From: a virus
Length of the DNA: 64,000 nucleotides
Strand: one strand, 5' to 3'
Virus record (IMG/VR): IMGVR_UViG_3300023184_005191
Coordinates: 1 to 64,000 of that record
The notes below the pieces were generated by a model. It saw nothing but the letters and a program-made list of their open reading frames with translations. It made no database searches and was not told the DNA's origin. The position numbers were made by a program, and so were the translations under genes. Position 1 is the first letter of the stretch; each line of letters opens with the position of its first letter. Positions 1,071 through 60,588 of the stretch are shown piece after piece.

Positions 1071-1107
1071 GAATATACGAAAAATGTTTTACTTTTAATA
1101 TTCCTTT
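1071..1107 (-). promoter_or_regulatory. Type-1 promoter (AAAGGAAT-N22-TATATTC)
   Basis: On the minus strand AAAGGAAT is followed after exactly 22 bases by TATATTC, then the AATAAAGGTT leader and the ATG at 1048. The same two boxes at the same spacing recur in front of many genes in the first 11.4 kb. Confidence 0.6.
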
Positions 1108-1108
1108 A

Positions 1109-1459
1109 TTAAAATTCTCCAAAAATTCCCCCACAATATCTAGCGTAATCATACCCTTGAGTATCAACGAAATAATTTCTACCTTTATGCTTCAAAATCC
1201 AAAACTGTTCAGAACCGAAATAATCATGAAATAATGAAAATTCATTTGGATCAATTGGTGATTCATTGTCTTCTTCATCATACTCCATTATTAATGAAGT
1301 ATCTACTGTTGGTAGAGTTTTTAACATATCTTTAATATGTTGAGGAACATCTTTTAAATCTGTTGAGCAACAATCCTCAGGGCGGTCTTGTTTTCTATCA
1401 ACATTAATATATGCTCTGATTTCATCCAATTCCATCAATCTTTTACTTCCAATTTCCAT
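1109..1459 (-). CDS. Hypothetical protein
   Basis: 116 residues with several aromatic residues in the C-terminal third (HDYFGSEQFW, GYDYARYCGG). No recognised domain. The ATG is preceded by the recurring AATAAAGGTT leader, and a TTTGAA-N18-TATATTT promoter lies at 1483-1513. The type-1 promoter of the next gene begins directly after its stop codon. Confidence 0.75.
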   Translation of the reverse strand: MEIGSKRLMELDEIRAYINVDRKQDRPEDCCSTDLKDVPQHIKDMLKTLPTVDTSLIMEYDEEDNESPIDPNEFSLFHDYFGSEQFWILKHKGRNYFVDTQGYDYARYCGGIFGEF

Positions 1460-1482
1460 AACCTTTATTTTTTAATATATTT

Positions 1483-1513
1483 AAATATACAAAATTTATT
1501 TTATTATTCAAAA
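1483..1513 (-). promoter_or_regulatory. Type-2 promoter (TTTGAA-N18-TATATTT)
   Basis: Minus-strand TTTGAA, 18 bases, then TATATTT, upstream of the ATG at 1459. The spacing fits the Bacteroidota -33/-7 promoter pattern. The upstream box overlaps the 3' end of the ligase gene. Confidence 0.5.
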
Positions 1514-2565
1514 TCCCTTATAGCAATTACTTTAGGAAATCTAGGTACACCATCAGTAGTTAATTCAAAATATTTAACAGTTGCTTTTTTACCTATTAAA
1601 TCTCCTCGCTTAAATAACATTTCTAAATATTCATGATCCCCATTCACAGCTGAGTCAAATCTATCAAACACTAGTTTGCCTATTTTTCCTGTTAATTTTC
1701 CTTTACCTTCTACTACACCTTTAATTTCAAATTCATCATCCATAAACGATTTATGTTTAAGTAAATGTTTAGAACGTTTATTCTCATATTCACTATTTAA
1801 CACTCTAATCATTTGACCTTCATATCCATCAGCTATATAATCTGAATAATAAGCTAATATATCATTTTTATTATCGGTTTGTTCTGTTTTAACAATTATA
1901 CAACATTCAGGTAAATCTAATTCTAATAATGTTTCATATCGTTCTATAAATGTACCTACATGTGATGGCAAGTCATAGATCCAATATTGAATGTATTGTT
2001 TACTTTCAATTATATCATTTGGAGTTGGTTTTGTTTTTCTAACACATGAGATAATTTTATTGAAATCAACCCCATCATTTTTATGAGCATATAACTCACC
2101 ATCAAATACTAAATCAGGATATTTTTCAAATAGTGGTTTTAATGCCTCATGAATATGAGGGGCGGATATAAGTTCTTTTCCATTACGGCTTCTCATTCCA
2201 TCAATATCTATAATACATCTTACACCATCTAATTTAGGTTGAGTTACTACTGGGAATTTAATTTTATCTTTGTAGTCATTATAATCATGAGCTAACATTG
2301 GTTTAAAATAAACTGGCTTGTCTATGTCATTGATGTTTTCAAATGCTCCTAAATCTATTTTTTTCTTATGTAATGCTTTGGCTTGTTTTATGGCTTGTTC
2401 CTCAGCTGTACAATATGATTTAGTTTCACATACAGTCCATTCTGATGTTACTTTTAATCCATCTGTAAATCCTGATATTGTTCTAAATTTATTTTCTTCA
2501 GTTTCAATTGTCCATTCACTTATTTTTCCTGTAGTAGAACGTTTATACAATGTTTTAAATATCAT
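1504..2565 (-). CDS. ATP-dependent DNA ligase
   Basis: 353 residues, about the length of T7-type ATP-dependent DNA ligases. The adenylation motif I Lys is in QPKLDGVRC (about residue 112). Further nucleotidyltransferase motifs are DGELYAH (motif III), DGYEGQMIR (motif IV) and a Lys-rich motif V region (LLKHK), followed by a C-terminal OB-fold segment (KGKLTGKIGKLVFD). It seals nicks with ATP during replication and repair. Its ATG has the AATAAAGGTT leader and a promoter at 2588-2624. Assignment to the family is firm; preference for DNA over RNA is inferred from overall similarity. Confidence 0.93.
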   Translation of the reverse strand: MIFKTLYKRSTTGKISEWTIETEENKFRTISGFTDGLKVTSEWTVCETKSYCTAEEQAIKQAKALHKKKIDLGAFENINDIDKPVYFKPMLAHDYNDYKDKIKFPVVTQPKLDGVRCIIDIDGMRSRNGKELISAPHIHEALKPLFEKYPDLVFDGELYAHKNDGVDFNKIISCVRKTKPTPNDIIESKQYIQYWIYDLPSHVGTFIERYETLLELDLPECCIIVKTEQTDNKNDILAYYSDYIADGYEGQMIRVLNSEYENKRSKHLLKHKSFMDDEFEIKGVVEGKGKLTGKIGKLVFDRFDSAVNGDHEYLEMLFKRGDLIGKKATVKYFELTTDGVPRFPKVIAIRDFE

Positions 2566-2587
2566 AACCTTTATTTTTAATATATTT

Positions 2588-2624
2588 AAATATACGAATT
2601 TATCTTTTAATTCCTAATTCCTCT
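2588..2624 (-). promoter_or_regulatory. Type-1 promoter of the ligase gene
   Basis: Minus-strand GGAAT, 22 bases, then TATATTT, 23 bases upstream of the ligase ATG. The upstream box lies inside the 3' end of the phosphoesterase gene. Confidence 0.55.
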
Positions 2625-3106
2625 AATGTTTTTGGAGTATAATCTACCATCTCACATGAAACACAAATGTAACGCTCATCTATCACATCCATTGGTAAAT
2701 CTGTTCTCATCACACGTTTACCATGAATATGTCCGTGAATGTTTATAGGAAAACGATATTCTAGCTCCATTGGATGAATCGGACAATGTGTTAAAATAAC
2801 ACCTTTGTAGTTGATCATTCCAGCTACACTCTCAACACAATCAAGTAATTTTTTAGTGTCTTGTCTACGATCGTGGTTTCCTAACACAATATGTTTTATA
2901 CCATTTAAACGAGAAAGCAAATGGTATGGAGAGGATTTCTCCATTGTTATATCACCTAAAATATAGGTAACATCACGTTTGTTTACAACACTGTTCCATT
3001 GACTAATAATGTATTCATCGTGTTCCTCTACAGTTGAGAAACCACGTCTTACAGACATGTTGGTATGTGATAAATGTAAATCTGCTATAAAACGAACTGT
3101 TGACAT
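2600..3106 (-). CDS. Metallophosphoesterase (calcineurin-like)
   Basis: 168 residues from ATG at 3106. Metal-binding motifs of the calcineurin-like superfamily are in order: FIADLHLSH, ILGDIT, GNHDRR, ILTHCPIH and NIHGHIHG. Such phage enzymes hydrolyse phosphomono- or diesters; the substrate is unknown. The frame is open upstream to 3157, but that extension translates the promoter (FVYS is TTC GTA TAT TCC), so the ATG at 3106 with its AAAGAAATAAC leader is the likely start. A second member of the superfamily lies at 10103-10852. Confidence 0.88.
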   Translation of the reverse strand: MSTVRFIADLHLSHTNMSVRRGFSTVEEHDEYIISQWNSVVNKRDVTYILGDITMEKSSPYHLLSRLNGIKHIVLGNHDRRQDTKKLLDCVESVAGMINYKGVILTHCPIHPMELEYRFPINIHGHIHGKRVMRTDLPMDVIDERYICVSCEMVDYTPKTLEELGIKR

Positions 3107-3128
3107 GTTATTTCTTTTTATTTGAATG

Positions 3129-3165
3129 GAATATACGAAAAATATTTTGCTTATCAAATTCCTTT
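3129..3165 (-). promoter_or_regulatory. Type-1 promoter
   Basis: AAAGGAAT, 22 bases, TATATTC on the minus strand. It begins directly after the stop codon of the gene at 3167-3370 and drives the phosphoesterase. Confidence 0.6.
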
Positions 3166-3166
3166 G

Positions 3167-3370
3167 TTAAGGGAGATGTTTAATGATTAAGTATGCAAAT
3201 GTTAATAGTGCAAATGCAGCTGGGCATATTATTCCAAATAAAAAACCAAAGTATTCCATAATACCTACATCAAGTGGATTGAATGGTATGTCTTGTTCTT
3301 TACATGATTTATATATTCTATATGTTGAGATAATGCCTATTACAACAAGTATTCCTAAAAGTGTTAACAT
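3167..3370 (-). CDS. Small two-helix membrane protein
   Basis: 67 residues with two strongly hydrophobic segments (about 1-17 and 40-64) joined by a polar loop with a Lys/Cys-rich start (YKSCKEQD). No family recognised. An A-rich leader precedes the ATG; it is probably co-transcribed with the two genes to its right. Confidence 0.65.
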   Translation of the reverse strand: MLTLLGILVVIGIISTYRIYKSCKEQDIPFNPLDVGIMEYFGFLFGIICPAAFALLTFAYLIIKHLP

Positions 3371-3389
3371 ATTATTTCTTTTTTAATTA

Positions 3390-3626
3390 TTATTCCTCTT
3401 TAAACTCTAAACATATAACTATATTCTCAGGTAAATACTCGATTTGCCCAGCACATTTATTGTACTTTGTAAATTCTGTATTAGCCATTATCTCAAAATA
3501 ACAACGTCCATTATAAACATATAAAAGTTTTCCTAACAAAGTAGGAAAACAATTATTATTTAAAACACGTCCAATCATTTGATTGATATTCTGTATTTGA
3601 GATGTACGAGGTGTGGATTGCCTCAT
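3390..3626 (-). CDS. Hypothetical protein
   Basis: 78 residues, Asn- and Cys-containing, with no recognisable motif. The start codon lies one base after the stop of the next gene upstream, which indicates translational coupling in one transcript from the promoter at 4526-4562. Confidence 0.6.
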   Translation of the reverse strand: MRQSTPRTSQIQNINQMIGRVLNNNCFPTLLGKLLYVYNGRCYFEIMANTEFTKYNKCAGQIEYLPENIVICLEFKEE

Positions 3627-3627
3627 A

Positions 3628-4500
3628 TTATTTTTTAATTGTAGGAACTAAACAATCTACTCCATCCCAATCCTTTATAATTTCGTAAGTGTAATGATCT
3701 GGTAGGAATAATGATTTATACTTTAAGTTACCTCCATTTCTAATTTCAATACATTCCAAAATCTCTCCTAAATTAATTTCTTCCTCTTGTTTACCAAATA
3801 TTTTCTCCAATACTGGTAATTGAGTAGATGTGGCTGCTCCAAACATTTTATTAATTGTTCCATCTGCTAATGCAATATCACCAAACGGTTGATCTTTTGC
3901 AATGTCTGTAATTCTTGTTTTCCATGCTGAGCATGCAATGTCATGGATTTCTTGTAGTTGTTCTCTTTTAATTGTAACCATTGTTTCTGATTTTTGTTCT
4001 GTTAAATTTTGTTTTTTTGATAATTCTTGAAGTATTGATTCTTTAAACATGAAATAATTTTCTCCCCTATAATCTTCACAATCAGCTAAAATATATGTTT
4101 CTCCTTTAAAATCTTTACAACCAAAGCTAACTAAATCATAATTTTCACCACCATATTGACTATCAGAATCATCATATCCTGTGTTAACACATCTAAAACA
4201 TGTTCCTGATTTAATAATAGGTAACTTAGTACCTTTAACTTTAAAATCTACTACTGTGTTTTGATTTGTTAATCCCATAAATTGCTCTATTGTTAATACG
4301 GTTGGTTTACCTTTAAAGTAACTTATTTCGTCATAACAATTTACCCCTGAACTTGTACTAGGTTCTGTACCGTAGTAATTGTAAGCGTTACCTTTCCATG
4401 TAAATCCACTTTGTTCATTCAAATATTTAATAACTTTTTTCCAATCTGGGTTTCTTAAGTCTCGTTCAACAACCCAATACTCTGGTAATCTGTTTTTCAT
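3628..4500 (-). CDS. Hypothetical phage protein
   Basis: 290 residues from ATG at 4500. The N-terminus (LPEYWVVERDLRNPDWKKVI) resembles a domain that recurs in marine and T4-like phage proteins of unknown function. A Lys/Glu-rich helical segment lies at about residues 170-210. The open frame extends to 4551, but the extra 17 residues translate the promoter (EFVYLS), so 4500 is the better start. Function unknown. Confidence 0.8.
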   Translation of the reverse strand: MKNRLPEYWVVERDLRNPDWKKVIKYLNEQSGFTWKGNAYNYYGTEPSTSSGVNCYDEISYFKGKPTVLTIEQFMGLTNQNTVVDFKVKGTKLPIIKSGTCFRCVNTGYDDSDSQYGGENYDLVSFGCKDFKGETYILADCEDYRGENYFMFKESILQELSKKQNLTEQKSETMVTIKREQLQEIHDIACSAWKTRITDIAKDQPFGDIALADGTINKMFGAATSTQLPVLEKIFGKQEEEINLGEILECIEIRNGGNLKYKSLFLPDHYTYEIIKDWDGVDCLVPTIKK

Positions 4501-4525
4501 AATCTTTCTTTTTTTATTTATACTT

Positions 4526-4562
4526 AAATATACGAATTCTCTTTTACTCAAACCATTCCTTT
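4526..4562 (-). promoter_or_regulatory. Type-1 promoter
   Basis: AAAGGAAT, 22 bases, TATATTT on the minus strand. Here no stop codon is near the upstream box, which shows that the box is not simply part of gene ends; it lies just after a terminator. Confidence 0.6.
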
Positions 4563-4571
4563 GTTTAATTT

Positions 4572-4610
4572 AAAAAAAACCTACCATATGTTCGTATTCA
4601 CATGGTAGGT
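4572..4610 (-). terminator. Rho-independent terminator
   Basis: On the minus strand CCTACCAT pairs with ATGGTAGG around a 14-base loop and is followed by eight T residues. It ends the transcript carrying the tRNA-like element at 4640-4718. Confidence 0.8.
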
Positions 4611-4639
4611 CTAAAAGAAACGGTTATGAAGCGTTTTGT

Positions 4640-4718
4640 AGTCAGGGCCGGACTCGAACCGGATAAACAACCACTTAACTGGACTCGGGAACCAATCCCT
4701 CATTACGTCCACCTGACT
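4640..4718 (-). tRNA. tRNA-like element 1, isotype unclear
   Basis: A perfect 7-bp acceptor stem (AGTCAGG/CCTGACT) and a T-arm with loop TTCGAGT are clear. The 79-base length is near normal, but I cannot place an ordinary D-arm and anticodon arm; GGAC/GTCC and GGG/CCC pairings dominate the middle. A loop reading GTTAAGT would give a UAA (Leu) anticodon but its stem is poor. The acceptor stem is identical to the elements at 13393-13495 and 13633-13755. It could be a true tRNA with unusual folding or a decayed copy. Confidence 0.5.
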
Positions 4719-4726
4719 ATCCTTAT

Positions 4727-5479
4727 TTAAACAGCTAATGCATATTGATCAGCTAATGAAAATAATTTTTGATTTAATATAATATCTGTATTGAAGTTTG
4801 TAACATCAGCTGTTAGATTTTCTTGTATTCTGTTGAATACTGTCCATAAATCATTACCTTCGTCCTCTATTCGATTAACTTTAAATAAATCATCTATGTT
4901 AACATCTGTTAAATCATCAAAACGTAAACGAGCTGCATCAATTGCAAACTTTTTAATATAATCAGGATTCATTGAGATTTGTTGCATATTTTTAATTACA
5001 TCTGATAAAACCATTGCTTTATCATTCATTTTTGCAATTAAATTCGGTAAATCTCTATAATTGATTTCGGTATGTTTAATTGAAGATTCAGCTGCATTAT
5101 CAAAACGTACTGCTCCGTTAGAGCATACTAAACGAAATGCTCCTAAATTCATATTAAGCGGTTGATTACCGTTTGTACTATTTGATAATGTAATTGAAGC
5201 GAATGCTTCCGTTTTACCGTTTTTATCTAAAATATTAAAATCAGGATGATGCATTTGAGCATAATTAGATTCAATCTTTCTACTCTTACCTCGTTGTTCA
5301 GCAACTCCTTTCAATAACCATCCTTCATCTTGTAACATCTTAACAGCATCCATTGTTTCAATATAGAATGGTTTTTGTTTAATTTTTTGAACATTTACAA
5401 TGTTATTTACATCTAATGTGTTAGCGAATGCTATCGCTTTGTTGATATTATTATCAACTGGAATAAATTTGTATTTCAT
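4727..5479 (-). CDS. DUF932-like protein, copy A
   Basis: 250 residues. The motif LGAFRLVCSNGAV and the C-terminal NDLWTVFNRIQENL match the DUF932-type family found on phages and plasmids, whose biochemical role is not established. A paralogue with the same order of motifs lies at 7106-7906. It lies just downstream of the small gene at 5486-5608 and is probably in the same transcript. Confidence 0.8.
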   Translation of the reverse strand: MKYKFIPVDNNINKAIAFANTLDVNNIVNVQKIKQKPFYIETMDAVKMLQDEGWLLKGVAEQRGKSRKIESNYAQMHHPDFNILDKNGKTEAFASITLSNSTNGNQPLNMNLGAFRLVCSNGAVRFDNAAESSIKHTEINYRDLPNLIAKMNDKAMVLSDVIKNMQQISMNPDYIKKFAIDAARLRFDDLTDVNIDDLFKVNRIEDEGNDLWTVFNRIQENLTADVTNFNTDIILNQKLFSLADQYALAV

Positions 5480-5485
5480 AATGTT

Positions 5486-5608
5486 TTATTTTGAATAAAC
5501 TGGTTTAACATGTCCGTTTTTATCAACGGTATATTCTATTGGTTGTTTTAAATTGTTCGCTTTATTATAGCGTCCTTTTTTTGTTTTACTTCCTCCTGTA
5601 CAACTCAT
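5486..5608 (-). CDS. Small basic protein
   Basis: 40 residues starting MSCTGGSKTKKGRYNK. It is short, but has its own type-1 promoter at 5631-5667 and an A-rich leader directly before the ATG. Basic N-terminal half, no known family. Confidence 0.55.
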   Translation of the reverse strand: MSCTGGSKTKKGRYNKANNLKQPIEYTVDKNGHVKPVYSK

Positions 5609-5630
5609 ATTTTTATTTTTAATTATGATT

Positions 5631-5667
5631 GAATATACGAAATTGGAGATTAATCTCCAATTCCTTT
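5631..5667 (-). promoter_or_regulatory. Type-1 promoter with palindromic spacer
   Basis: AAAGGAAT, 22 bases, TATATTC. The spacer contains the perfect palindrome TTGGAGATTAATCTCCAA (18 bases), which may be an operator or a terminator for the RadA-like gene. Confidence 0.6.
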
Positions 5668-5668
5668 T

Positions 5669-6478
5669 TTATTCTTCTGCTTGATTTAAAGCGTAATGTA
5701 CTCCGTCCTTGTATATTGAGAAATAGATTTTATAATCTTTATCGCAATCTCTATTTTTATCAAAATGTAATGAACGTTCTAACCCATCTTTACTTCGCTC
5801 AACACAACAATATGCTTCCATCATGTGTTTCAAACGGTTTGATCCAGCAAATTCATCTCCTTTAGTGAATTGTTGAATATTGATGAATGAGGTATAGTAA
5901 CCGTTTTGATTATTTCCTTTTTTAACATCATCTTGTAACTTCAAAAACCATGATTCAGCTTGTTTAACTGTTCCTCCATTTTGATCTCTGTACATATCTA
6001 GTACCTCCGCAATTGAATCCAATCCAATAACATCATATCCTAAACTAAATACATGTTCAATTGTTTCTTTGATGTTATCCATATGATCTTTTAAAAACAA
6101 CGTTTGAATGCAACCAAACTCTGGTATTCTTCGACAATATTTGTAATGTCCAATCTGATCCATCTCACCTTGTACTAGCAAACATTTCAATCCTTGCATT
6201 GTAAATTTAGATAACATATCTAAAACTAGTGTTGATTTACCTGAACCAGGTCCACCTGCGATCATCATTGAAATACCTGGCATTAATCCTCCATCAGTAG
6301 ATAAGATTAAATCAATTTCTGTACCTGTTTTCATAGGTTTGAATAATGATTCATTGAATGATAAATCATTACCTCTAAATAGTTGAACTGAATTAGGGTC
6401 GAATTCAACAATCGCTTGTTCTTTTTTAGGTCTGCCGCGTCTCTCCACTTTTACTCCTTTCATAATTAAACTTTCCAT
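5669..6478 (-). CDS. RecA/RadA-superfamily ATPase
   Basis: 269 residues. Walker A is GGPGSGKST (about residue 75); a Walker B-like strand is DVIGLDSIAEV, and a QFTKGDEFAGSNRLKHM segment resembles the L2/motif region of RadA and DnaB-type RecA-fold ATPases. The N-terminus (VERRGRPKK) is basic. It most likely acts in recombination or replication as the phage RecA/UvsX-type or RadA-type ATPase; which one cannot be told by eye. It lies between two DUF932-like paralogues. Confidence 0.8.
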   Translation of the reverse strand: MESLIMKGVKVERRGRPKKEQAIVEFDPNSVQLFRGNDLSFNESLFKPMKTGTEIDLILSTDGGLMPGISMMIAGGPGSGKSTLVLDMLSKFTMQGLKCLLVQGEMDQIGHYKYCRRIPEFGCIQTLFLKDHMDNIKETIEHVFSLGYDVIGLDSIAEVLDMYRDQNGGTVKQAESWFLKLQDDVKKGNNQNGYYTSFINIQQFTKGDEFAGSNRLKHMMEAYCCVERSKDGLERSLHFDKNRDCDKDYKIYFSIYKDGVHYALNQAEE

Positions 6479-6502
6479 AACTTTTCTTTTTTTATTATAC
6501 TT

Positions 6503-6539
6503 GAATATACGAACTTTCTTTTAAATAAACTATTCCTTT
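6503..6539 (-). promoter_or_regulatory. Type-1 promoter
   Basis: AAAGGAAT, 22 bases, TATATTC upstream of the RadA-like ATPase. The upstream box overlaps the last codons of the next gene. Confidence 0.6.
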
Positions 6540-6757
6540 AGATAATCTCTAATTTCAGCTGCTGATTCATATTCCTCTACATTTACAGCATATGTTAACA
6601 TATTTTCCATCATTTCAATGAAGTTTCCATCAAAATCTACATCTAATATAAATTGTAAATTTTTCTTTTGTTCAAGTGAAATATTTGTAGCTGATTCTAT
6701 TTCGGGATGAAATATTCCATTCCATACTGTTGCTTCCCATGTTTTTATCATTCTCAT
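6530..6757 (-). CDS. Small protein with UVR-like motif
   Basis: 75 residues. The C-terminus (EEYESAAEIRDYLKE) fits the UVR motif of UvrB/UvrC, a short helical hairpin that mediates protein contacts in repair proteins. The ATG has an AAAGGTT leader. Its position beside the RadA-like ATPase fits a repair or recombination role, but this is inference. Confidence 0.65.
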   Translation of the reverse strand: MRMIKTWEATVWNGIFHPEIESATNISLEQKKNLQFILDVDFDGNFIEMMENMLTYAVNVEEYESAAEIRDYLKE

Positions 6758-6763
6758 AACCTT

Positions 6764-6991
6764 TTATTTACCATATTGTTGTTCCCATAATTCTGCTCCT
6801 GTTCTATTATCACGTTGTGGCCAGTTTGGATTGTGATCTGGTCGATTGATAAACATTATAATAGAGAATATAGTGTATATCCAAAAAAATATTGCATATT
6901 TACCGAAATGTCCTTTGATGTACCATCTCAAAAACACATATGTTAACCATATTACAATAAAACCACTAATAACATTCCAAATTGTTTTCAT
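6764..6991 (-). CDS. Small membrane protein
   Basis: 75 residues from ATG at 6991, with two hydrophobic helices (IWNVISGFIVIWLTYVFL and a second around residues 26-45) and a polar tail. The open frame upstream to 7039 translates the promoter (FFVYSS) and is not used as the start. No family recognised. Confidence 0.65.
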   Translation of the reverse strand: MKTIWNVISGFIVIWLTYVFLRWYIKGHFGKYAIFFWIYTIFSIIMFINRPDHNPNWPQRDNRTGAELWEQQYGK

Positions 6992-7011
6992 TTTTTCCTC
7001 TTTTATACTTG

Positions 7012-7049
7012 AATATACGAAAAATATTTTGATAAACATATTCCTTTTA
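7012..7049 (-). promoter_or_regulatory. Type-1 promoter
   Basis: AAAGGAAT, 22 bases, TATATTC, located between the DUF932-like copy B and the small membrane protein. Confidence 0.6.
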
Positions 7050-7105
7050 TAAGGACAGTAAAGGGATGGCTAACACCATCCCATTTTGTTTACTGTTTGC
7101 TTTTC

Positions 7106-7906
7106 TTACTGAGCAAATTCAAGGGCCAATTCAAATAGTTGTTTATTCACTTTTAAATCTTGACTGAAATTTTTGATTCGACGAGCTTTTCTCGTTTTTG
7201 ACCCTGTTTGATATGTAAAATCACCATCAATAATTTTCTCTTGTACTACATTAAATACAGACCATAGATCTGTTCCTCTATCTTCTCTTCGAGTTGGTTT
7301 CAACAACTCCATTACATCAACTGTAATTCGAGTCATTTCATCCTCACTGAATCGAGTTAGCAATGCTCTAGTTGCTAAATCAACTGCTTGCTCTTCTTCA
7401 AGAACAACTGTTTTCATTTTATTCATTGACTCTACTGTTAGAGGCAAACGCTCAACCATTCCATGGATTCTAGTTTGTAGTTCCTCAAATGTATAACCCA
7501 TGTGACGCATCTTAACATCCTCAAATTGTTCAGTTGAGATAACTAAACCATTCTCACATACCATTCTGAATAAACCAGCGGTGAAAGTAAACGCGTTTTT
7601 CCCGTCATGCGAGTTTGTCAATAAAATCTGAGGAAACACAGTATCACCGTCGTTTCCATTGATTACTACATCGTTATTTCTAAATACGATGAGGTGTTTT
7701 TGGAAGCCAATGCCTTTTCTAGCTTTTACTTCCTTTACATCTACTACTTTCCAACCTAACTGGTCCATATCCTCCATCACTTGAGATGTTGGAATGTGAG
7801 TGTAGTGAGATGAAACTGAATCCGCAGCTGTTGCTGTGAAAATACTTGGAGCAATTCTCTTGATTTGCTCGTTGTTTAAATAATTTGTTGAATTAATGTC
7901 TAACAT
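7106..7906 (-). CDS. DUF932-like protein, copy B
   Basis: 266 residues, paralogue of 4727-5479. Shared elements in order: an N-terminal region, AGLFRMVCENGLV, a helical region, and the signature EDRGTDLWSVFNVVQEKI. The C-terminus is Lys/Arg-rich (TRKARRIKNF). The ATG carries the AAAGGTT leader; the promoter is at 7947-7983. The biochemical function of the family is unknown. Confidence 0.82.
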   Translation of the reverse strand: MLDINSTNYLNNEQIKRIAPSIFTATAADSVSSHYTHIPTSQVMEDMDQLGWKVVDVKEVKARKGIGFQKHLIVFRNNDVVINGNDGDTVFPQILLTNSHDGKNAFTFTAGLFRMVCENGLVISTEQFEDVKMRHMGYTFEELQTRIHGMVERLPLTVESMNKMKTVVLEEEQAVDLATRALLTRFSEDEMTRITVDVMELLKPTRREDRGTDLWSVFNVVQEKIIDGDFTYQTGSKTRKARRIKNFSQDLKVNKQLFELALEFAQ

Positions 7907-7946
7907 AACCTTTACTTTTTAATTTATTTTTCCTTTTTATTTGATT

Positions 7947-7983
7947 GAATATACGAATAAATTTTTAATTTATCAATTCCTTT
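7947..7983 (-). promoter_or_regulatory. Type-1 promoter
   Basis: AAAGGAAT, 22 bases, TATATTC upstream of DUF932-like copy B. Confidence 0.6.
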
Positions 7984-8327
7984 TCTACAAATTCAATTAA
8001 TTTGAACAAACAATCCATTTCTGCTTCTTCGTAATTTTTATAATAACCACCACGCAGAGGAGCATCTATAGTTAACATAAACTCTTCTTTAGTACCTATT
8101 TTATGTTCTAATCTATGAATATTAAAATACAATCCATACTTTTCTCTAAACCATCTGAATGCTGATTGCCAAGTTGGTGCTGATGTGACTTCATTGTTTC
8201 CTTGCTGACTCGCTATTTCATCTATAACCAAATATGATTGATTAGTATAATATCCAAAACAAGGCTCATCAAACCCAAGTGTTTTCATTCTTAAAGCCAA
8301 CTCGTATGTAACAAATTCTTTTTCCAT
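7965..8327 (-). CDS. Conserved phage protein
   Basis: 120 residues. The pattern TYELALRMKTLGFDEP followed by SAFRWFREKYGLYFNI is a common phage and prophage hypothetical family. The frame also has an ATG two codons upstream (8333); the ATG at 8327 better matches the GGTTATGG context of its neighbours. Function unknown. Confidence 0.8.
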   Translation of the reverse strand: MEKEFVTYELALRMKTLGFDEPCFGYYTNQSYLVIDEIASQQGNNEVTSAPTWQSAFRWFREKYGLYFNIHRLEHKIGTKEEFMLTIDAPLRGGYYKNYEEAEMDCLFKLIEFVEKELIN

Positions 8328-8351
8328 AACCATTTTTCCTTTTTACAGATT

Positions 8352-8382
8352 GAATATACGAAATTTATTTTGCTTTTTCAAC
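8352..8382 (-). promoter_or_regulatory. Probable type-2 promoter
   Basis: GTTGAA, 18 bases, TATATTC upstream of the gene at 7965-8327. The upstream box departs from TTTGGA. Confidence 0.4.
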
Positions 8383-8652
8383 CAAAGTATTACATTTGTT
8401 TAAAAACTGATCTAAATTCGCTCCACATTTACATGTTTGTGAATCTATATTGAATTTACAGTTGTTTCTAGATGATTTTTTATTAACCATAAAAACATGT
8501 CTCTCAGTGTCTATTGGAGATAAATCCACATCTGGTCTAACTGTGTGGGATATTCTAAGTTTGGGAGTGTATGGTTGTGGTTTTTTACATAACATTCCCA
8601 CTTGTCTTAACCAAAGGAACACTTTGGTTTTTAAATTACGTTTACGTTTCAT
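8365..8652 (-). CDS. Hypothetical basic protein
   Basis: 95 residues, strongly basic at the N-terminus (MKRKRNLKTKVF) with four cysteines in the second half, including a CKCG pair that could bind a metal. No known family. It starts 2 bases after the stop codon of the small membrane protein upstream. Confidence 0.6.
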   Translation of the reverse strand: MKRKRNLKTKVFLWLRQVGMLCKKPQPYTPKLRISHTVRPDVDLSPIDTERHVFMVNKKSSRNNCKFNIDSQTCKCGANLDQFLNKCNTLVEKAK

Positions 8653-8653
8653 C

Positions 8654-8830
8654 TTATTTTCTTAAAAGTACACCTAAAACAATTACACCTATAACAAGTA
8701 GAACTGGTATCCAAAGAGGAGAAGTAACCCACCACCATGACCAAGCAATGTTTTCTGTTAATTTAAGAGTCATAAATATAAGGAATAAAATCATTCCTAA
8801 GCCTAATCCACTGTTTGTTTCTTTATTCAT
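8654..8830 (-). CDS. Small two-helix membrane protein
   Basis: 58 residues. Two hydrophobic segments flank the motif WSWWWVTSPLWIP, which recurs in small membrane proteins of many phages. The ATG has an A-rich leader and a promoter at 8854-8889. Possible roles such as holin cannot be judged from sequence. Confidence 0.7.
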   Translation of the reverse strand: MNKETNSGLGLGMILFLIFMTLKLTENIAWSWWWVTSPLWIPVLLVIGVIVLGVLLRK

Positions 8831-8853
8831 AATTTCTTTTTTTAAATATGATT

Positions 8854-8889
8854 GAATATACGAAAAGATAATTTAATAAACTATCCTTT
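8854..8889 (-). promoter_or_regulatory. Type-1 promoter variant
   Basis: AAAGGAT, 22 bases, TATATTC; one base shorter in the upstream box than the consensus. Confidence 0.5.
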
Positions 8890-9114
8890 AAGTAAAGTTT
8901 TTTGCTCTTTTGTTTCTTTAAGTTGGTTCAATAATGTTTTCTCTACCATGTTTATATCATGGTGAGTGCTGATTATTTCTTTCTCTATTTGTTTAATTTT
9001 CTTTTTAAACATTTTCAAGTTTGAGGTATACTGTACTATAAAGAACATAGCTATAAAAAGTAGTACTACAAGTATTCCTGTAAGGAATAGTAATATTGAG
9101 ATCATTGTTTCCAT
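8881..9114 (-). CDS. Membrane-anchored coiled-coil protein
   Basis: 77 residues: an N-terminal transmembrane helix (about residues 4-28) followed by a Lys/Glu/Gln-rich amphipathic helix to the C-terminus. The start overlaps the end of the next gene by 13 bases, so the two are likely co-translated. The arrangement resembles small spanin- or adaptor-like proteins, but no family is recognised. Confidence 0.65.
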   Translation of the reverse strand: METMISILLFLTGILVVLLFIAMFFIVQYTSNLKMFKKKIKQIEKEIISTHHDINMVEKTLLNQLKETKEQKTLLKG

Positions 9115-9464
9115 AATTTAGTTTTTAGTTTTTTTATTTGTTTTTCATTTAATTTGAAAGTGGAAGATTTGGCTGATATTTCTATCTCATTCTCAAACGG
9201 GGTATATCTAACTGATGTATTACCTACATAAGTGTAATATGTTTTTTGATTGTTGAGTGCACTCAATAGTTCCTCTAGAAATAAATCCATCATATTTTTA
9301 TTACCTACCACTAAGTAAGAAGTGTGGTAATATATTTTATATGTTGGTTCGGAATTTTGAATTACTCGTTCAATTCTGAGTTCTTGTTTTTTGTCTTTAA
9401 GTATGGTTTGTCCCATTGTGTTTAGGGAAAAACAAATCATAAATATTAATAATATATTTTTCAT
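9102..9464 (-). CDS. Exported protein, unknown function
   Basis: 120 residues from ATG at 9464. The N-terminus (MKNILLIFMICFSLNTMGQ) is a clear Sec signal peptide with a Bacteroidota-like GQ end. The rest is beta-rich and basic. An upstream in-frame start at 9488 would put eight polar residues before the signal peptide and is less likely. It overlaps the upstream gene. A periplasmic or surface location in the infected cell is inferred. Confidence 0.65.
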   Translation of the reverse strand: MKNILLIFMICFSLNTMGQTILKDKKQELRIERVIQNSEPTYKIYYHTSYLVVGNKNMMDLFLEELLSALNNQKTYYTYVGNTSVRYTPFENEIEISAKSSTFKLNEKQIKKLKTKLWKQ

Positions 9465-9475
9465 TTTAAATTGTT

Positions 9476-10048
9476 TTAATCCCACCATCCTTCAATTTCG
9501 CGAGACATTATTGTAAATATTAATTCTTTTGCTTTTTCTTGTCTTAAATCACCCATAATCATTGCCACAAGTTTTTTATCATTGTGATCAGTAGTAAATC
9601 TATTTTGATTTTCTTTAATATAATTAATGGCTCTTTTTTGCCAGGTTGGATATTTTGTAAGATATGAATCAAAATCCTCACTAATTATGTTCATTTCCAA
9701 TTCTTTAAAATCTGGTTTGTCTTCTATATCTAAAAATACCATTTCACTTTCATGGTAATCCATGTATTCAGCATCATAGTAACCATTTTTAACACGCTCA
9801 ATTAAACGAGCAACTAGTTGCATTCGAGAAGCATCATGTTTAGCTCTAGTATGAATATCCCTACCACCAATATATTCAGCTTGAAATTCAATCTTTGTTT
9901 TGAGTATTTCATAAATGAAGGATTGATCCCAATTCCTATCTTTCCAGATAACAGGAAACCATTTCCATAAGTTCTTCACTCCTGCTATAAAATCTTTACG
10001 CATGTACTTTCCACTGAAGTACCACCATGCACTTACTTTGTCTAACAT
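9476..10048 (-). CDS. Conserved phage protein
   Basis: 190 residues. The pattern IHTRAKHDASRMQLVARLIERV recurs in a family of phage proteins of unknown function. Rich in Trp and acidic residues. It probably heads the unit with the exported and coiled-coil proteins downstream; no clear two-box promoter was found immediately upstream. Confidence 0.75.
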   Translation of the reverse strand: MLDKVSAWWYFSGKYMRKDFIAGVKNLWKWFPVIWKDRNWDQSFIYEILKTKIEFQAEYIGGRDIHTRAKHDASRMQLVARLIERVKNGYYDAEYMDYHESEMVFLDIEDKPDFKELEMNIISEDFDSYLTKYPTWQKRAINYIKENQNRFTTDHNDKKLVAMIMGDLRQEKAKELIFTIMSREIEGWWD

Positions 10049-10102
10049 ATTAATCTAATTTATTGTAAAAGAAACTAATAATCCATAAACATATTTTCTC
10101 CA

Positions 10103-10852
10103 TTATAGCCATATTATTTCATTTGTAATGTTATTCCATTCAAAAGTGAATGGTAAATTTGTATATTGGTAACGCTCATTTAAAACAGAAGCATTAAAGT
10201 AATGTGTTTGTCCATCAAAATAGTAACCATGACTTCCATGTATGTGTCCACAAACATGTATTTTTGGTCGAGCAACAGTATTAATATGCTCTGTTAGTAA
10301 TTCACATCCAACTCGTATATCTCTACTTCCACCTGGGATATCTAATATACCCCAAGCAGGACCATGTGTGACTAAAATATCTGTATTGGTTGGAATAGCA
10401 TCCCATCTTGCTTTCATTTCTTCCCCATTTCGAGGCAAATTAAAAGCCCAACTAAAAAATTCTGGTTGCCAAGGTGAACCATAGATGCGAATATTTTCCT
10501 CTGGCATGTCCCCGTTTGGTCCATCTCCATAAATAACAAAATCTTCATCTTGTAGATAATCTATTGTTTTATATCCTGTTAGAATACCTTGAGCCCATTC
10601 TGGCTCGTCTTGCATCATACGATCATGATTACCAGCGATGAATACTTTTGTATCATAATTATCAATTTCATCATACCATTTGAAGAAATCTTCTGCCTCG
10701 TATCGAGAATACCCAGTTGACATAAAATCACCTGCATGTATCAATAAATCACCTCCAGGTAAATCCAATGGTTGATTGGGTTTACGCATTGATTTTGTTG
10801 TTGCAATTTGATTATGTTTTGTATGAGTGTCTGATAAAAGTGATATTTTCAT
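10103..10852 (-). CDS. Metallophosphoesterase (calcineurin-like)
   Basis: 249 residues with the complete superfamily motif set: LLSDTHTKH, LIHAGDF, FIAGNHDRM, LVTHGPAW and HVCGHIHGSHG. It resembles bacterial and eukaryotic MPPED-type phosphodiesterases in size and motif order. The substrate is unknown. The ATG overlaps the stop codon of the small upstream gene in an ATGA arrangement, so it is translationally coupled. Confidence 0.9.
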   Translation of the reverse strand: MKISLLSDTHTKHNQIATTKSMRKPNQPLDLPGGDLLIHAGDFMSTGYSRYEAEDFFKWYDEIDNYDTKVFIAGNHDRMMQDEPEWAQGILTGYKTIDYLQDEDFVIYGDGPNGDMPEENIRIYGSPWQPEFFSWAFNLPRNGEEMKARWDAIPTNTDILVTHGPAWGILDIPGGSRDIRVGCELLTEHINTVARPKIHVCGHIHGSHGYYFDGQTHYFNASVLNERYQYTNLPFTFEWNNITNEIIWL

Positions 10853-10983
10853 GGGTATTTTTCATTAAGTGAAATAAAAATAAAAAACATAACTATTGCC
10901 CAAACATTAAATCCTCCAAAAATAAGAGCGATAGTTGATGTAAATGTCAATAGTTTAAAGATAAATCCTTCTGTTAATTTCAT
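10849..10983 (-). CDS. Small membrane protein
   Basis: 44 residues with hydrophobic segments (about residues 7-22 and 25-37). It is coupled on both sides by ATGA overlaps, which supports that this short ORF is real. No family recognised. Confidence 0.6.
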   Translation of the reverse strand: MKLTEGFIFKLLTFTSTIALIFGGFNVWAIVMFFIFISLNEKYP

Positions 10984-11339
10984 ATTTTAAATAATTTGTA
11001 GTTACTATTTTGTGTTTTAAATTCAATATAATCTTCTCTTACTTCAACAATTTCAGTTACTACTGATGTTTGCCATGTGAAAAATTGATTGAATGGGGAC
11101 ATTAATAAGGAGCGATCAATAGCAATTTCTGGGTGTTTATCTTTAAACATTCCATCATCACCAAATTCCAACCACATAACCTCTTTGGATTGTTTTGTTA
11201 AACCATCATGTTCACGTACTAGTTTCCAATTAAATTCAGATTCTATTACTCCTAATAATTCAGCAAATTTTTCATCTAGACGCATTATTCCATCATCTCC
11301 CATATTAACTAATAATTTTTGTTGTTCTCCTCCTATCAT
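10980..11339 (-). CDS. Hypothetical protein
   Basis: 119 residues, mixed alpha/beta, no recognised motif (FNWKLVREHDGL, FFTWQTSVVTEIVEV). It is the first gene of a three-gene coupled unit with the small membrane protein and the phosphoesterase, driven by the promoter at 11361-11397. Confidence 0.7.
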   Translation of the reverse strand: MIGGEQQKLLVNMGDDGIMRLDEKFAELLGVIESEFNWKLVREHDGLTKQSKEVMWLEFGDDGMFKDKHPEIAIDRSLLMSPFNQFFTWQTSVVTEIVEVREDYIEFKTQNSNYKLFKI

Positions 11340-11360
11340 AATATTTCCTTTTTATAGATT

Positions 11361-11397
11361 GAATATACGAAAGGGAGCTTGCGCTCCCTATTCCTTT
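11361..11397 (-). promoter_or_regulatory. Type-1 promoter containing a terminator hairpin
   Basis: AAAGGAAT, 22 bases, TATATTC. The spacer holds GGGAGC-GCAA-GCTCCC followed by TTT, which looks like the terminator of the RNA ligase gene placed between the two promoter boxes. Confidence 0.65.
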
Positions 11398-12571: not shown

Positions 12572-12602
12572 AAATATACAAAAAAATTTTTTAAAATCCA
12601 AA
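12572..12602 (-). promoter_or_regulatory. Type-2 promoter of the RNA ligase gene
   Basis: TTTGGA, 18 bases, TATATTT upstream of the ATG at 12557. Confidence 0.55.
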
Positions 12603-12609
12603 TGTTGGT

Positions 12610-12996
12610 TTAAAGGGAAATTTCAAATCTGTTTTTCATTTCTACTAACTTCTCATCTGGAACTCCATGTTCATTAACTCCTCCGTGACGATTCTCTACA
12701 ATTAATGTTGTAACTTGATAACCATATTTTTCAGCTAATTTGTAATATGATTCTAATTCCCACTCTTGAGTGAATGTATTAGAAACAACTACATTATAGC
12801 CTTGAATCATCCAACCTTCTGTTCTATTTTGACACCACTCATGGGCTTGTTTAATTTTAGATGCTATAAATCTATATTCACCTGTTACAGGATCAATAAA
12901 ATACATATCTGCTTCAACATGTTGATTACAGATTGATTTAGCAAATGTTGACTTACCACTACCTGGTAAACCTCTAATTAAAAATAAATTTTTCAT
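12610..12996 (-). CDS. P-loop kinase (polynucleotide kinase-like)
   Basis: 128 residues with Walker A GLPGSGKST near the N-terminus and a following basic helix, typical of the AAA_33/zeta-type kinase fold that includes T4 polynucleotide kinase. The conserved segment NVVVSNTFTQ matches the strand after the P-loop domain core. It may phosphorylate 5'-OH RNA ends before sealing by the adjacent RNA ligase. There is no phosphatase domain, unlike T4 Pnkp. Confidence 0.8.
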   Translation of the reverse strand: MKNLFLIRGLPGSGKSTFAKSICNQHVEADMYFIDPVTGEYRFIASKIKQAHEWCQNRTEGWMIQGYNVVVSNTFTQEWELESYYKLAEKYGYQVTTLIVENRHGGVNEHGVPDEKLVEMKNRFEISL

Positions 12997-13017: not shown

Positions 13018-13048
13018 GAATATACGAAAGATATTTTGAGAAGACAAA
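13018..13048 (-). promoter_or_regulatory. Type-2 promoter
   Basis: TTTGTC, 18 bases, TATATTC upstream of the P-loop kinase; it directly follows the terminator at 13046-13092. Confidence 0.5.
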
Positions 13049-13092
13049 AAAACCCAAGCAGCCTCTGTTGATCAAACAGTCTTACTTGGGGT
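13046..13092 (-). terminator. Terminator ending the tRNA cluster
   Basis: Minus strand: CCCAAG pairs with CTTGGG, with an inner CTGTT/AACAG hairpin, followed by a run of seven T. It closes the tRNA/structured-RNA transcript. Confidence 0.75.
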
Positions 13093-18383: not shown

Positions 18384-18674
18384 TTAATCCTCTAAATACC
18401 ATTTATCTGTGATTTCGATGAATCCACTCTCATCATCCTCATCTTTATATTCAGGAAGTAAACCAGCGTTCTCAATTAAATTCCAAACTCTATCTTTCCA
18501 AGCATCTAAACTTTTACCTTCAATTTCTGTAATACCATGCATGGTTAATTCACCTAAGGTATTGATAAGATCTGTGCTTAAAAGATTAAATAACTCGAGG
18601 TCCATGTTTCCTCCTTTGTACATTTCTTTTAAGGCTAAAAATTGATTGGTGATTAGATTTTTTGTTTTTGACAT
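18384..18674 (-). CDS. Hypothetical acidic protein
   Basis: 96 residues, mostly helical and acidic at the C-terminus (YKDEDDESGFIEI). It is the first gene of the transcript that leads through small ORFs to thyA and the thioesterase. Function unknown. Confidence 0.65.
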   Translation of the reverse strand: MSKTKNLITNQFLALKEMYKGGNMDLELFNLLSTDLINTLGELTMHGITEIEGKSLDAWKDRVWNLIENAGLLPEYKDEDDESGFIEITDKWYLED

Positions 18675-18712: not shown

Positions 18713-18743
18713 GAATATACGAAAAATATATTTTATCTCCAAA
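18713..18743 (-). promoter_or_regulatory. Type-2 promoter for the thyA transcript
   Basis: TTTGGA, 18 bases, TATATTC, about 40 bases upstream of the ATG at 18674. Confidence 0.55.
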
Positions 18744-19806
18744 TCTTTTTTAAAGAACCATCATCATATATCTCAAGTATTAAACCAGATGTAGAAGAGG
18801 ATACTTCCTGTCCCAAAACATTCAAATATTTTACAACAGTTTTATTTCCTCTATTATCAATAGAGATAGGATCATATGTTCTAGAATTTCCATCAAAATC
18901 AACTTGTGTTAATCTATAATAGTTTATTGTTTGAGGAGCTGAATAATCTGTAAATGAATAGTCTAATTTAGAGGATGAATTATTTGCTCCCTCTATTTTA
19001 GCTATTGTGGAAAATTCGCTGTTAATTGAGCGCTCAAGTAGGAAATGACTATTGTTGTGCTCAGAGCCTGTCTGCCAATTTAATACGTTATATTCGTTGG
19101 TTTTATGCCCTGTAAATTGAGTTAGCTCAATGGGAAGAAATTCAACTTTAAGTAATTGAATATTATCAATCCACCATTCTTCCCCAGCTGAATTAATACG
19201 ACAATAAATGTCAATTGCTAGTTGGGTAATACCAGTAGGCATAGTTAATGTAATAGTTGATGGACCTGTGGTTGTACTTCCAACGGGGGCAGCATATACA
19301 TCTCCTGTTGGAGCTGCTGAGTTAGTGAATGTTCCGTTAGCTGTATGATTGATTATACCAGTTGAGGTATATGGCCAAATAGAATTATTATTACCTGTTA
19401 TCCTAAGCTCAGTTACATATGAAACTCCCCCATTTCTAGATACTTGAACACTAATATAATCTGCTACATCAACCCCTTTAGTAGTAGCTGTTGATGTAAA
19501 AGATTGAGATGCTAATTTAAATTTTAATTGGTATGTACTTGAGGGATTTAACCCAGTTATATTGGGTAACGAATACCAATCTTGCTCAATGATAGAGGCA
19601 GCATTACCTAAACCATAAATTACTGCACTTTGATTAGAGGAAACAAATGTGTTTGTTGCCCAAGTAGCTGTTACTGCGGGGGTCCACCATCCTGCTGTTA
19701 AATAGGAAGTGGAAGAGGTTTCCATAAAATCATATTGAATAATAGTTTGTGCGGTGATTGAACTACACGCCAGTATAAATAATGATAGTAAAAGTAAATT
19801 TTTCAT
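18733..19806 (-). CDS. Secreted protein with T9SS sorting domain
   Basis: 357 residues. An N-terminal signal peptide (MKNLLLLSLFILACSSITAQ) leads into a beta-rich Ser/Thr/Asn-rich domain (about 21-225), then a fibronectin-type region (ELTQFTGHKTNEYNVLNWQT to FTDYSAPQTINYYRLTQVDF) and a C-terminus (YLNVLGQEV, then YDDGSLKKI) that matches type-A T9SS sorting domains of Bacteroidota. Such proteins cross the outer membrane by the type IX system and are anchored or released. This phage gene therefore seems to use a host-specific export route; alternatively it is a captured host gene. Confidence 0.8.
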   Translation of the reverse strand: MKNLLLLSLFILACSSITAQTIIQYDFMETSSTSYLTAGWWTPAVTATWATNTFVSSNQSAVIYGLGNAASIIEQDWYSLPNITGLNPSSTYQLKFKLASQSFTSTATTKGVDVADYISVQVSRNGGVSYVTELRITGNNNSIWPYTSTGIINHTANGTFTNSAAPTGDVYAAPVGSTTTGPSTITLTMPTGITQLAIDIYCRINSAGEEWWIDNIQLLKVEFLPIELTQFTGHKTNEYNVLNWQTGSEHNNSHFLLERSINSEFSTIAKIEGANNSSSKLDYSFTDYSAPQTINYYRLTQVDFDGNSRTYDPISIDNRGNKTVVKYLNVLGQEVSSSTSGLILEIYDDGSLKKIWR

Positions 19807-38871: not shown

Positions 38872-38902
38872 TAATATACAAAAACTTTTTTAATTTTCCA
38901 AA
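38872..38902 (-). promoter_or_regulatory. Type-2 promoter
   Basis: TTTGGA, 18 bases, TATATTA upstream of the Cas4-like gene, next to the terminator at 38901-38943. Confidence 0.55.
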
Positions 38903-38943
38903 TAAGAAAAAGAAACCCCCACGATAGCGAACGTTGGGGGTTT
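38901..38943 (-). terminator. Strong GC-rich terminator
   Basis: Minus strand AAACCCCCA pairs with TGGGGGTTT, followed by a T-rich tract. Confidence 0.85.
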
Positions 38944-58405: not shown

Positions 58406-58418
58406 ACTATTATAAATA
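58406..58418 (-). promoter_or_regulatory. TATnTATAATAAA motif variant
   Basis: TATTTATAATAGT, about 18 bases before the GIY-YIG ATG at 58387. Confidence 0.4.
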
Positions 58419-59762: not shown

Positions 59763-59793
59763 TAATATACGAATAAAAAATATGGACTCCAAA
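59763..59793 (-). promoter_or_regulatory. Type-2 promoter of the queC unit
   Basis: TTTGGA, 18 bases, TATATTA. The upstream box directly adjoins the stop of the DpdA-like gene. Confidence 0.55.
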
Positions 59794-60588
59794 TTAAAGT
59801 CCATTTATTTCTCTAAACATAGTAACATTCCAATCTACAAGATCTATATTTAAATCATTAATATTCATGTCTTGAAAATTATTCATGTTTGCTAGTGGTT
59901 TTGATTGTAAACCCATTTTTGTATAAGGCATTTCACCGATTGCAGCCATAATTGGATTTGAGGTATCAATAGATTCAATACAGTCAAGATTTTTATACAT
60001 TCCAAATTCAATAGGAGATGCTGTCCCAAGTAAGTGCACACGATCAAATTTTGTTAAGATACGTTGTTCATATAAAGATGATATAACAATAAAACGTCCA
60101 ATTGCTTTACCTAGATCTTTGTTTGGGTGTGGACATACTTCATTATAGTATGAGGCACCGTATGAATATGCTATCTTTTTGTAACCTAAATCTTTATATG
60201 TTTGAGTACAAAGCATAGCATTGTGTGCTGATTTTGCTTGCACTACAGCTACTTTCATTACCTCTTTAGGTAACTCAATTGTTGCCCATTGTCTTGCATT
60301 TCTAACTGAAGCATCTTTATCTTCCCATACATCTGGGATAATAAACTCGTTTGGTTTAATTTCGTTTATCCAGTATAGTAAACGTTCTGTATTATATGCC
60401 TCACCTAGTTCATGTAAGGAATTATCCATTACAATATAGCGGCCCATTTCTTTTGATTTGTAGAAGAAATCTCTATATTCCTCGTTTTGGTCCATTAAAT
60501 GAGGGAGCATATAATCATATGAATTGAACTCTCGGCTTTTCTCTAAAAGACAAAATGGAACTTCATGTGAAATTTTTATTTTTTTCAT
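59794..60588 (-). CDS. dpdA: DpdA-like DNA deazaguanine transglycosylase
   Basis: 264 residues. The segments YIVMDNSLHELGEAYN, FIIPDVWEDKDA and DRVHLLGTASPIEFG match the phage branch of tRNA-guanine-transglycosylase-like enzymes (DpdA family) that exchange guanine in DNA for a 7-deazaguanine base. VMDNS and PDVW would supply the catalytic Asp residues. Together with folE, queD, queE and queC it completes a DNA-modification route that protects phage DNA from restriction. Confidence 0.83.
   Translation of the reverse strand: MKKIKISHEVPFCLLEKSREFNSYDYMLPHLMDQNEEYRDFFYKSKEMGRYIVMDNSLHELGEAYNTERLLYWINEIKPNEFIIPDVWEDKDASVRNARQWATIELPKEVMKVAVVQAKSAHNAMLCTQTYKDLGYKKIAYSYGASYYNEVCPHPNKDLGKAIGRFIVISSLYEQRILTKFDRVHLLGTASPIEFGMYKNLDCIESIDTSNPIMAAIGEMPYTKMGLQSKPLANMNNFQDMNINDLNIDLVDWNVTMFREINGL

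Follow-up and report, generated by a model that had tools for sequence, protein, structure and literature searches.

A putative GGA-box promoter class with rigid spacing in large phages related to Flavobacterium phage immuto

The first 64,000 bases of a 67,650-base virus record (IMG/VR IMGVR_UViG_3300023184_005191)—hereafter called the window—carry a repeated two-part element, in which the upstream box AAAGGAAT stands exactly 22 bases before the -10-like word TATATT. The same box at the same spacing recurs in large phages of a clade related to the Flavobacterium phage immuto, where it occupies the place of the TTG element found in a second set of sites with the same -10. The patterns in the DNA are best explained by a second promoter class, among at least three in this clade. 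We refer to the TTG form as class A and to the AAAGGAAT form as class B, and take the first T of TATATT as position -12. G and L numbers denote related records and loci, with L106 being immuto (NC_055915).

A rigidly spaced box in the window and its relatives

In the window, the exact motif AAAGGAAT-N22-TATATTC has seven copies on the minus strand (1071, 3129, 5631, 6503, 7011, 7947, and 11361) and none on the plus strand. An earlier sequence-only reading of this DNA had listed nine positions for it. The motif is real and seven of these copies are exact, while the one at 4526 has one mismatch, the one at 2588 has two, and the one placed at 7012 lies at 7011. The near copy reported at 8854 exists, with its box one base closer to the -10, and one more copy, a degenerate one, is found at 1483. 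When the ending is relaxed to TATATT[CT], eight copies are found, all on the minus strand. At the 15 other spacings from 15 to 30 (15–21 and 23–30), AAAGGAAT and TATATT are paired on neither strand. The motif is also more frequent than chance predicts, since 28 matches are found with up to three mismatches, as compared to a mean of 12.9 in shuffled sequences, and 0 of 100 shuffles reach 28. Each of the 11 listed copies is followed by an ATG, 26–47 bases past the start of TATATT, that opens an open reading frame (ORF) of at least 40 codons. Throughout the 67,650-base record, the upstream box is confined to the first 11.4 kb, as the sequence-only reading had it, and the class B block runs up to the contig end, where it is cut. 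The restriction does not hold for the downstream half of the element: TTCGTATATT-like -10 sites continue across the window, and beyond 11.4 kb they mostly have TTTGG or CTTG upstream at a fixed place.

Does the spacing hold outside this record? A first IMG/VR scan with the exact 18-base pattern returned 22 stretches in 20 contigs, hereafter called the seed contigs. When these contigs, the window's record, and immuto were searched for AAAGGAAT-N(19-25)-TATATT, 76 of the 80 sites had the spacing of 22. The 80 sites include 28 scan seeds and eight sites of the window itself, and count both of the near-identical G012 and G016; of the 44 sites that remain without these seeds and the window's own, 40 have the spacing of 22. 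The same search yielded one site with the reversed-pattern control and none in immuto. A second IMG/VR scan, with AAAGGAATAG-N19-GTATATT, retrieved 62 stretches, as compared to two for the N20 version, and 32 of 41 further records contain AGGAAT-N20-YGTATATT (control matches: 1).

The register is equally sharp when the sites are aligned by their -10. Among 543 coding-strand sites in 20 records (immuto and G016 left out), AGGAA stands exactly 23 bases from [CT]GTATATT 188 times, and 0–1 times at each neighbouring distance; GGAAT stands at 22 bases in 176 of them, again with 0–1 per neighbouring distance. The class A elements are likewise rigid, with TTTGG at 19 bases 67 times and CTTG at 20 bases 32 times. 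A good -10 was among the criteria by which these sites were chosen. Independently of that choice, RAGGAATA occurs 187 times on the coding strand, and in 75 of these cases TATATT stands at the fixed place, as compared to four for the next commonest word. Furthermore, of 28 loci found by protein alone, without the motif (each with at least 4 kb of sequence upstream of the HD-phosphohydrolase gene; some are seed contigs), 13 carry at least three class B sites.

The closest annotated records are the Flavobacterium phages 'immuto' (at most 3% of a 20-kb query aligned), and the large class B relatives encode homologues of 124 of the 223 immuto ORFs. Clade membership was checked for the 20 seed contigs: 19 of them have at least seven ORFs in common with the immuto-related clade, the exception being G008, which has a single class B site and three weak ORF matches to the clade.

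Two other sources of the motif were rejected. Chance or base composition is ruled out by the shuffles, the single spacing in the window, the 62 versus 2 IMG/VR stretches, and the 188 versus 0–1 occurrences. A host chromosomal promoter is ruled out for the exact motif only: the 18-base pattern has nine stretches in 84,980 prokaryote genomes, spread over phyla, and AAAGGAAT-N-GTATATT has 54 matches in 149 Flavobacteriaceae genomes, four of them at spacing 22, with a flat distribution over 19–27.

Two upstream elements on a common -10

In class A, TTG occupies -35 to -33, while in class B, AAAGGAATA occupies -42 to -34, with the conserved core GGA at -39 to -37. The two elements occupy overlapping positions. 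The sequence-only reading had placed the box too far upstream to correspond to the -33 element of Bacteroidota, which is incorrect: it lies at -42 to -35, with an extension to -34, and reaches the TTG place. The same reading correctly distinguished the box from TTTG, as its core is GGA and TTG or TTTG at about -33 is not a class B feature (17 of 311 GGA sites have both). Sorting of 535 unique sites gave 294 with GGA only, 111 with TTG only, 17 with both, and 113 with neither, whereas independence of the elements would predict about 74 with both. Both classes have in common TT(T)CGTATATT, an A-tract spanning -25 to -22, and a leader rich in A, and the TAnnTT core of the Bacteroidota -7 box is present in class B as TATATT. 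Because the two elements overlap and avoid each other, these data point to a substitution, in which the GGA box would take the place of TTG at class B.

The sites are placed as expected of promoters. An ATG opening an ORF of at least 35 codons lies 15–45 bases downstream of 217 of 244 class B sites in 10 genomes, as compared to 2,959 of 17,393 GGA sites elsewhere and 60 of 94 class A sites in the same genomes. All or nearly all of the class B sites of a genome lie in one 5–20 kb block of small genes: 34 sites at 61–80 kb in G012, 25 at 59.7–75.9 kb in G022, 38 at 73–94 kb in G037, 29 at 4–27 kb in G002, and nine at 88–93 kb in G014. Lone outliers occur, such as the site at 2,239 in G019. In the genomes holding both, the block lies upstream of the genes for the HD-phosphohydrolase and a sigma-like protein. 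The class B genes are probably early genes.

The matching block of immuto, upstream of its HD-phosphohydrolase gene (62–77 kb), has no GGA box, and AGTTGC stands at the TTG place. In the block of G057 (138,667 bases), TTAGG or TTTGG accompanies CGTATATT, and GGA sites are absent from the coding strand, where TTG sites number 22. Since these two blocks use TTG/TNG promoters, either TTG or GGA can serve this gene block while the -10 stays the same. About 20 small genes make up the immuto block, each after a near-identical cassette AGTTGC-N19-TATATTTAGGTATCAATAATTAAAA. In an HD-phosphohydrolase tree of 30 rows (21 with class B and nine without; 24 undecided loci were left out, and immuto is among the unused rows), the presence of class B needs four changes, versus 7.9 with shuffled labels. 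As 16 of the 26 inner branches are unresolved, the tree neither shows nor excludes a single origin of class B.

The spacers of class B contain more hairpins than expected. Stems of at least 6 occur in 45 of 383 class B spacers (10.3 expected), and stems of at least 7 in 26 (1.4 expected), while the class A spacers are not above chance (2 of 118, versus 1.1 expected). A terminator-like hairpin fits between the box and the -10 without altering the spacing (5632-5667 and 11362-11397 in the window, and others). Could the box then belong to the terminator of the upstream gene, or to an RNA element, with no promoter role? Boxes often begin at the stop codon of the upstream gene, and some spacers are such hairpins. 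However, 338 of the 383 spacers lack such a stem, a terminator has no need of a fixed distance from TATATT, and the box replaces TTG in register, so we regard this explanation as most improbable. A ribosome-binding site or a terminator as the main function is ruled out by the site alignment and the spacer-stem counts.

The sites of the window are listed in Table 1. Nearly all of the window's long ORFs run along the minus strand. Its encoded products include an ATP-dependent DNA ligase, an RNA ligase, thymidylate synthase, GroEL, a DNA polymerase, and glycosyltransferases, in addition to five tRNAs. Two DUF932 proteins are encoded in the class B block (4727-5479 and 7106-7906), and this family is also present in the matching immuto block.

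Table 1. Predicted class A and class B promoters in the window
Feature	Position	Strand	Details
Class B promoter	1072..1107	minus	Box AAAGGAAT 1100-1107, -10 TATATT 1072-1077; ATG of ORF 815-1048 29 bases from -10 start
Degenerate class B promoter	1484..1519	minus	AAGGGATT...TATATTT, GGA in register; before ORF 1109-1459
Class B promoter	2589..2624	minus	AGAGGAAT...TATATTT, two mismatches; before ORF 1504-2565 (DNA ligase family, phrog_114)
Class B promoter	3130..3165	minus	Before ORF 2600-3106
Class B promoter	4527..4562	minus	TATATTT ending, one mismatch; before ORF 3628-4500
Class B promoter	5632..5667	minus	Spacer is a perfect 8-bp-stem inverted repeat ATTGGAGATTAATCTCCAAT; next ORF 5486-5608 (40 aa)
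Class B promoter	6504..6539	minus	Before ORF 5669-6478 (RecA/KaiC-like ATPase)
Class B promoter	7012..7047	minus	Before ORF 6764-6991
Class B promoter	7948..7983	minus	Before ORF 7106-7906 (DUF932)
Near copy of class B	8855..8890	minus	AAAGGA one base nearer TATATT; before ORF 8654-8830
Class B promoter	11362..11397	minus	Terminator-like hairpin AGGGAGCGCAAGCTCCCT fills spacer; before ORF 10980-11339
Class A promoter, sole TTG type within class B block	8353..8388	minus	Before ORF 7965-8333
Class A promoter TTTGG-N19-TATATT	12573..12608	minus	Before RNA ligase-like ORF 11397-12557; first TTG promoter upstream of block
Class A promoter TTTG-N20-TATATT	13019..13054	minus	Before AAA ORF 12610-12996
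Class A promoter TTTGG-N19-CGTATATT	18714..18749	minus	Before ORF 18384-18674
Class A promoter	38873..38908	minus	Before ORF 37925-38866
Class A promoter	59764..59799	minus	Before ORF 59506-59748

Candidate readers of the GGA box

How would class B be read? We propose, with a probability of about one half, that a box-binding factor, probably specified by the phage, stands in for the normal -35 contact on the host RNA polymerase. First, the host RNA polymerase with its primary sigma factor would read the -10 CGTATATT; that this -10 is common to classes A and B suggests one polymerase–sigma pair for both. Second, the factor bound to the GGA box would replace the contact between sigma region 4 and TTG. 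Third, it would dock at one rigid place on the polymerase, hence the constant spacing, which argues for a contact on the polymerase itself. Finally, the factor would most likely be phage-specified—brought in with the virion, or else produced first from a class A promoter—as favoured by the restriction of class B to one phage clade. We infer that the class B sites are transcribed in this manner early in infection. The sequence-only reading had suggested a phage activator or sigma factor. The class is indeed phage- and clade-specific, which makes a phage-specified factor a good hypothesis, but no factor was identified. A more definite form of the proposal, in which a phage-encoded factor remodels or bypasses sigma region 4 and docks a GGA-binding domain at -42 to -34 in a fixed geometry, is possible but doubtful.

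Several observations weigh against the proposed factor. The class B genes look immediate-early, a stage when only host and virion proteins are present, which a newly made activator fits less well. Immuto and G057 manage the same block with TTG promoters, with no activator needed there. No regulatory-looking family that is absent from both immuto and G057 occurs in all eight class B genomes, and the literature searched, the open-licence part of PubMed Central (PMC), yielded no transcription data on these phages. The MotA family (PF09114) matched none of 12 records, a result that is uninformative because no control genome matched either.

Profiles were built for the families present in at least four of the eight class B genomes and missing from immuto or G057. 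Two families absent from both phages occur in seven of the eight: a multi-AT-hook-like protein (isoelectric point 11.5) and the family of the window ORF 3390-3626, whose model is a small beta-rich fold (mean predicted local distance difference test score, pLDDT, 78.6). Neither was detected in G014, although G014 has class B sites. The AT-hook-like protein is found in 10 of the 13 loci with at least three class B sites, versus two of the 15 others, which is a correlation only, given that these loci are related to one another and of unequal length. The protein was not found in the record of the window itself, where the block is cut by the contig end. This early protein is a candidate for the GGA-binding factor. 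It is very basic, with three to four repeats of GRPVNxNSxRQxRLxELExKRxNGELKR (L070:8230-8565, L082:2265-2600, and others). A Pfam scan of 90 cluster proteins revealed no recognised transcription activator among the 25 of 38 families listed.

The serious rival to the box-binding factor is direct reading by the host polymerase, which we consider somewhat unlikely. In this case, region 4 of sigmaA or the alpha subunit would accept AAAGGAATA, the strong extended -10 TTTCGTATATT would do most of the work, and the two classes would differ only in strength. Consistently, the relatives without class B use TTG-type promoters for the same block with the same -10, class B often retains T at -35 and sometimes G at -33, CG at -14/-13 is stricter in class B (C 0.95) than in class A (C 0.77), and a dedicated factor was not found. 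In contrast, GGA and TTG avoid each other, whereas an add-on element should co-occur with TTG in strong promoters. Moreover, the spacing is not enriched in the 149 Flavobacteriaceae chromosomes, and the sole seed contig outside the clade has one chance-like match.

An alternative sigma factor of the host, such as one of the extracytoplasmic function (ECF) type with a GGAA-like -35 and CGT in the -10, is an improbable reader. GGAAT and CGTA resemble ECF-type elements, and ECF promoters usually have about 16–17 bases between a GGAA(C/T)-like -35 and the CGT -10, whereas GGAAT and CGTA are 20 bases apart in class B. In addition, the same CGTATATT -10 pairs with TTG in class A, and host chromosomes show no spacing preference. 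On the side of an ECF factor, one study ascribes to ECF sigma factors a Flavobacterium psychrophilum motif whose -10 region includes a CGT box (PMC9723704).

The phage's own sigma-like protein, hereafter called A3, has to be considered next. It is conserved beside the class B block, and also in immuto, and ten members were aligned. One member lies at L070:14862-15599; the corresponding immuto gene is labelled hypothetical in its record. The predicted A3 structure combines a sigma region 2 fold with an additional, helical C-terminal portion (mean pLDDT 72.2). In VIA-align 2, all of the 50 entries listed for this model are sigma factors or RNA polymerase complexes (best Z 10.3, root-mean-square deviation 2.3 over 90 residues), bearing in mind that helical models easily reach middling Z. 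Foldseek found no match to the model in the PDB at E <= 0.001, and the protein has no match in PHROGs or among PDB sequences. The Sigma-70 region 2 family gave only sub-cut-off matches, in two of 12 records and two of ten A3 members.

A further motif of these phages bears on the role of A3. ATATTTATAA, which has no conserved upstream element, occurs before ORFs of at least 60 codons 493 times on the coding strand and 18 times on the non-coding strand in 10 genomes, including immuto and G057; examples on the minus strand of the window lie at 58409, 39835, 20285, and 15143. By its motif and the modelled fold, ATATTTATAA together with A3 looks like a T4-type late system, and A3 is therefore an unlikely reader of class B. 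A3 may be akin to T4 gp55. Its fold and the position of its gene, directly downstream of the class B block, would suit a reader of class B. However, A3 is conserved in immuto, which is without class B, and ATATTTATAA is the class found in 10 of 10 genomes, immuto and G057 included. We thus judge reading of class B by A3 to be quite improbable.

Relation to known promoters and meaning

The nearest parallel to class B is provided by the middle promoters of T4, driven by MotA and AsiA, in which a phage box occupies the -35 place and the host -10 is retained and has to be a good one; as in T4, a separate late class is also present. The MotA box, as given in PMC2988021, is (a/t)(a/t)(a/t)TGCTTtA, located 12 +/- 1 bp from the -10 and centred at -30. 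Class B differs in having AAAGGAATA, 22 bp from the -10 and centred near -38, at a block of small genes. In contrast to T4-type late promoters, which consist of a -10-like word alone, class B has a conserved upstream box. As compared to Bacteroidota primary sigma promoters (TTTG at -33 and TAnnTTTG at -7; the primary consensus of F. psychrophilum is TAnnTTTG at -12 to -5, PMC9723704), the TAnnTT core at -12 to -7 is the same and class A has TTG at -35 to -33. Class B departs from these promoters in its GGA at -39 to -37, its CG at -14/-13, and the lack of a conserved TTTG 3′ end of the -7 box.

Two other phage systems share traits with class B. The middle promoters read by SPO1 gp28 have an AGGAGA -35 and 17–18 bases to TTTnTTT. 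They resemble class B in their phage-specific AGGA-like upstream element, and differ from its 22 bases and its -10 in common with a TTG class. The PeSL cassettes of T4-type phages combine an early promoter with a stem-loop and, as class B may also do, form intergenic units that close one early gene and open another, again and again along a block of small early genes. In class B, unlike PeSL, the hairpin occurs in a minority of sites and sits within the promoter spacer, stems having been counted in spacers only.

In the open-licence PMC literature, we found no description of this promoter class and no paper on the promoters of this clade. As far as that literature shows, phage takeover of the unusual Bacteroidota RNA polymerase is little studied. 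Here, one clade combines a single -10 with either of two interchangeable upstream elements, at a near-absolute spacing and in dozens of contigs, which suggests that these phages redirect the host transcription machinery in a manner not yet described. This raises a directly testable question: which protein reads GGA, and is sigma region 4 displaced? The class B promoters would also be candidate phage-controlled parts for Flavobacterium genetics. If the more definite form of the proposal, with a phage-encoded factor acting on sigma region 4, holds, class B would be an independent counterpart of the sigma appropriation of T4, with its own box and register, serving host-takeover genes in a widespread clade of aquatic phages.

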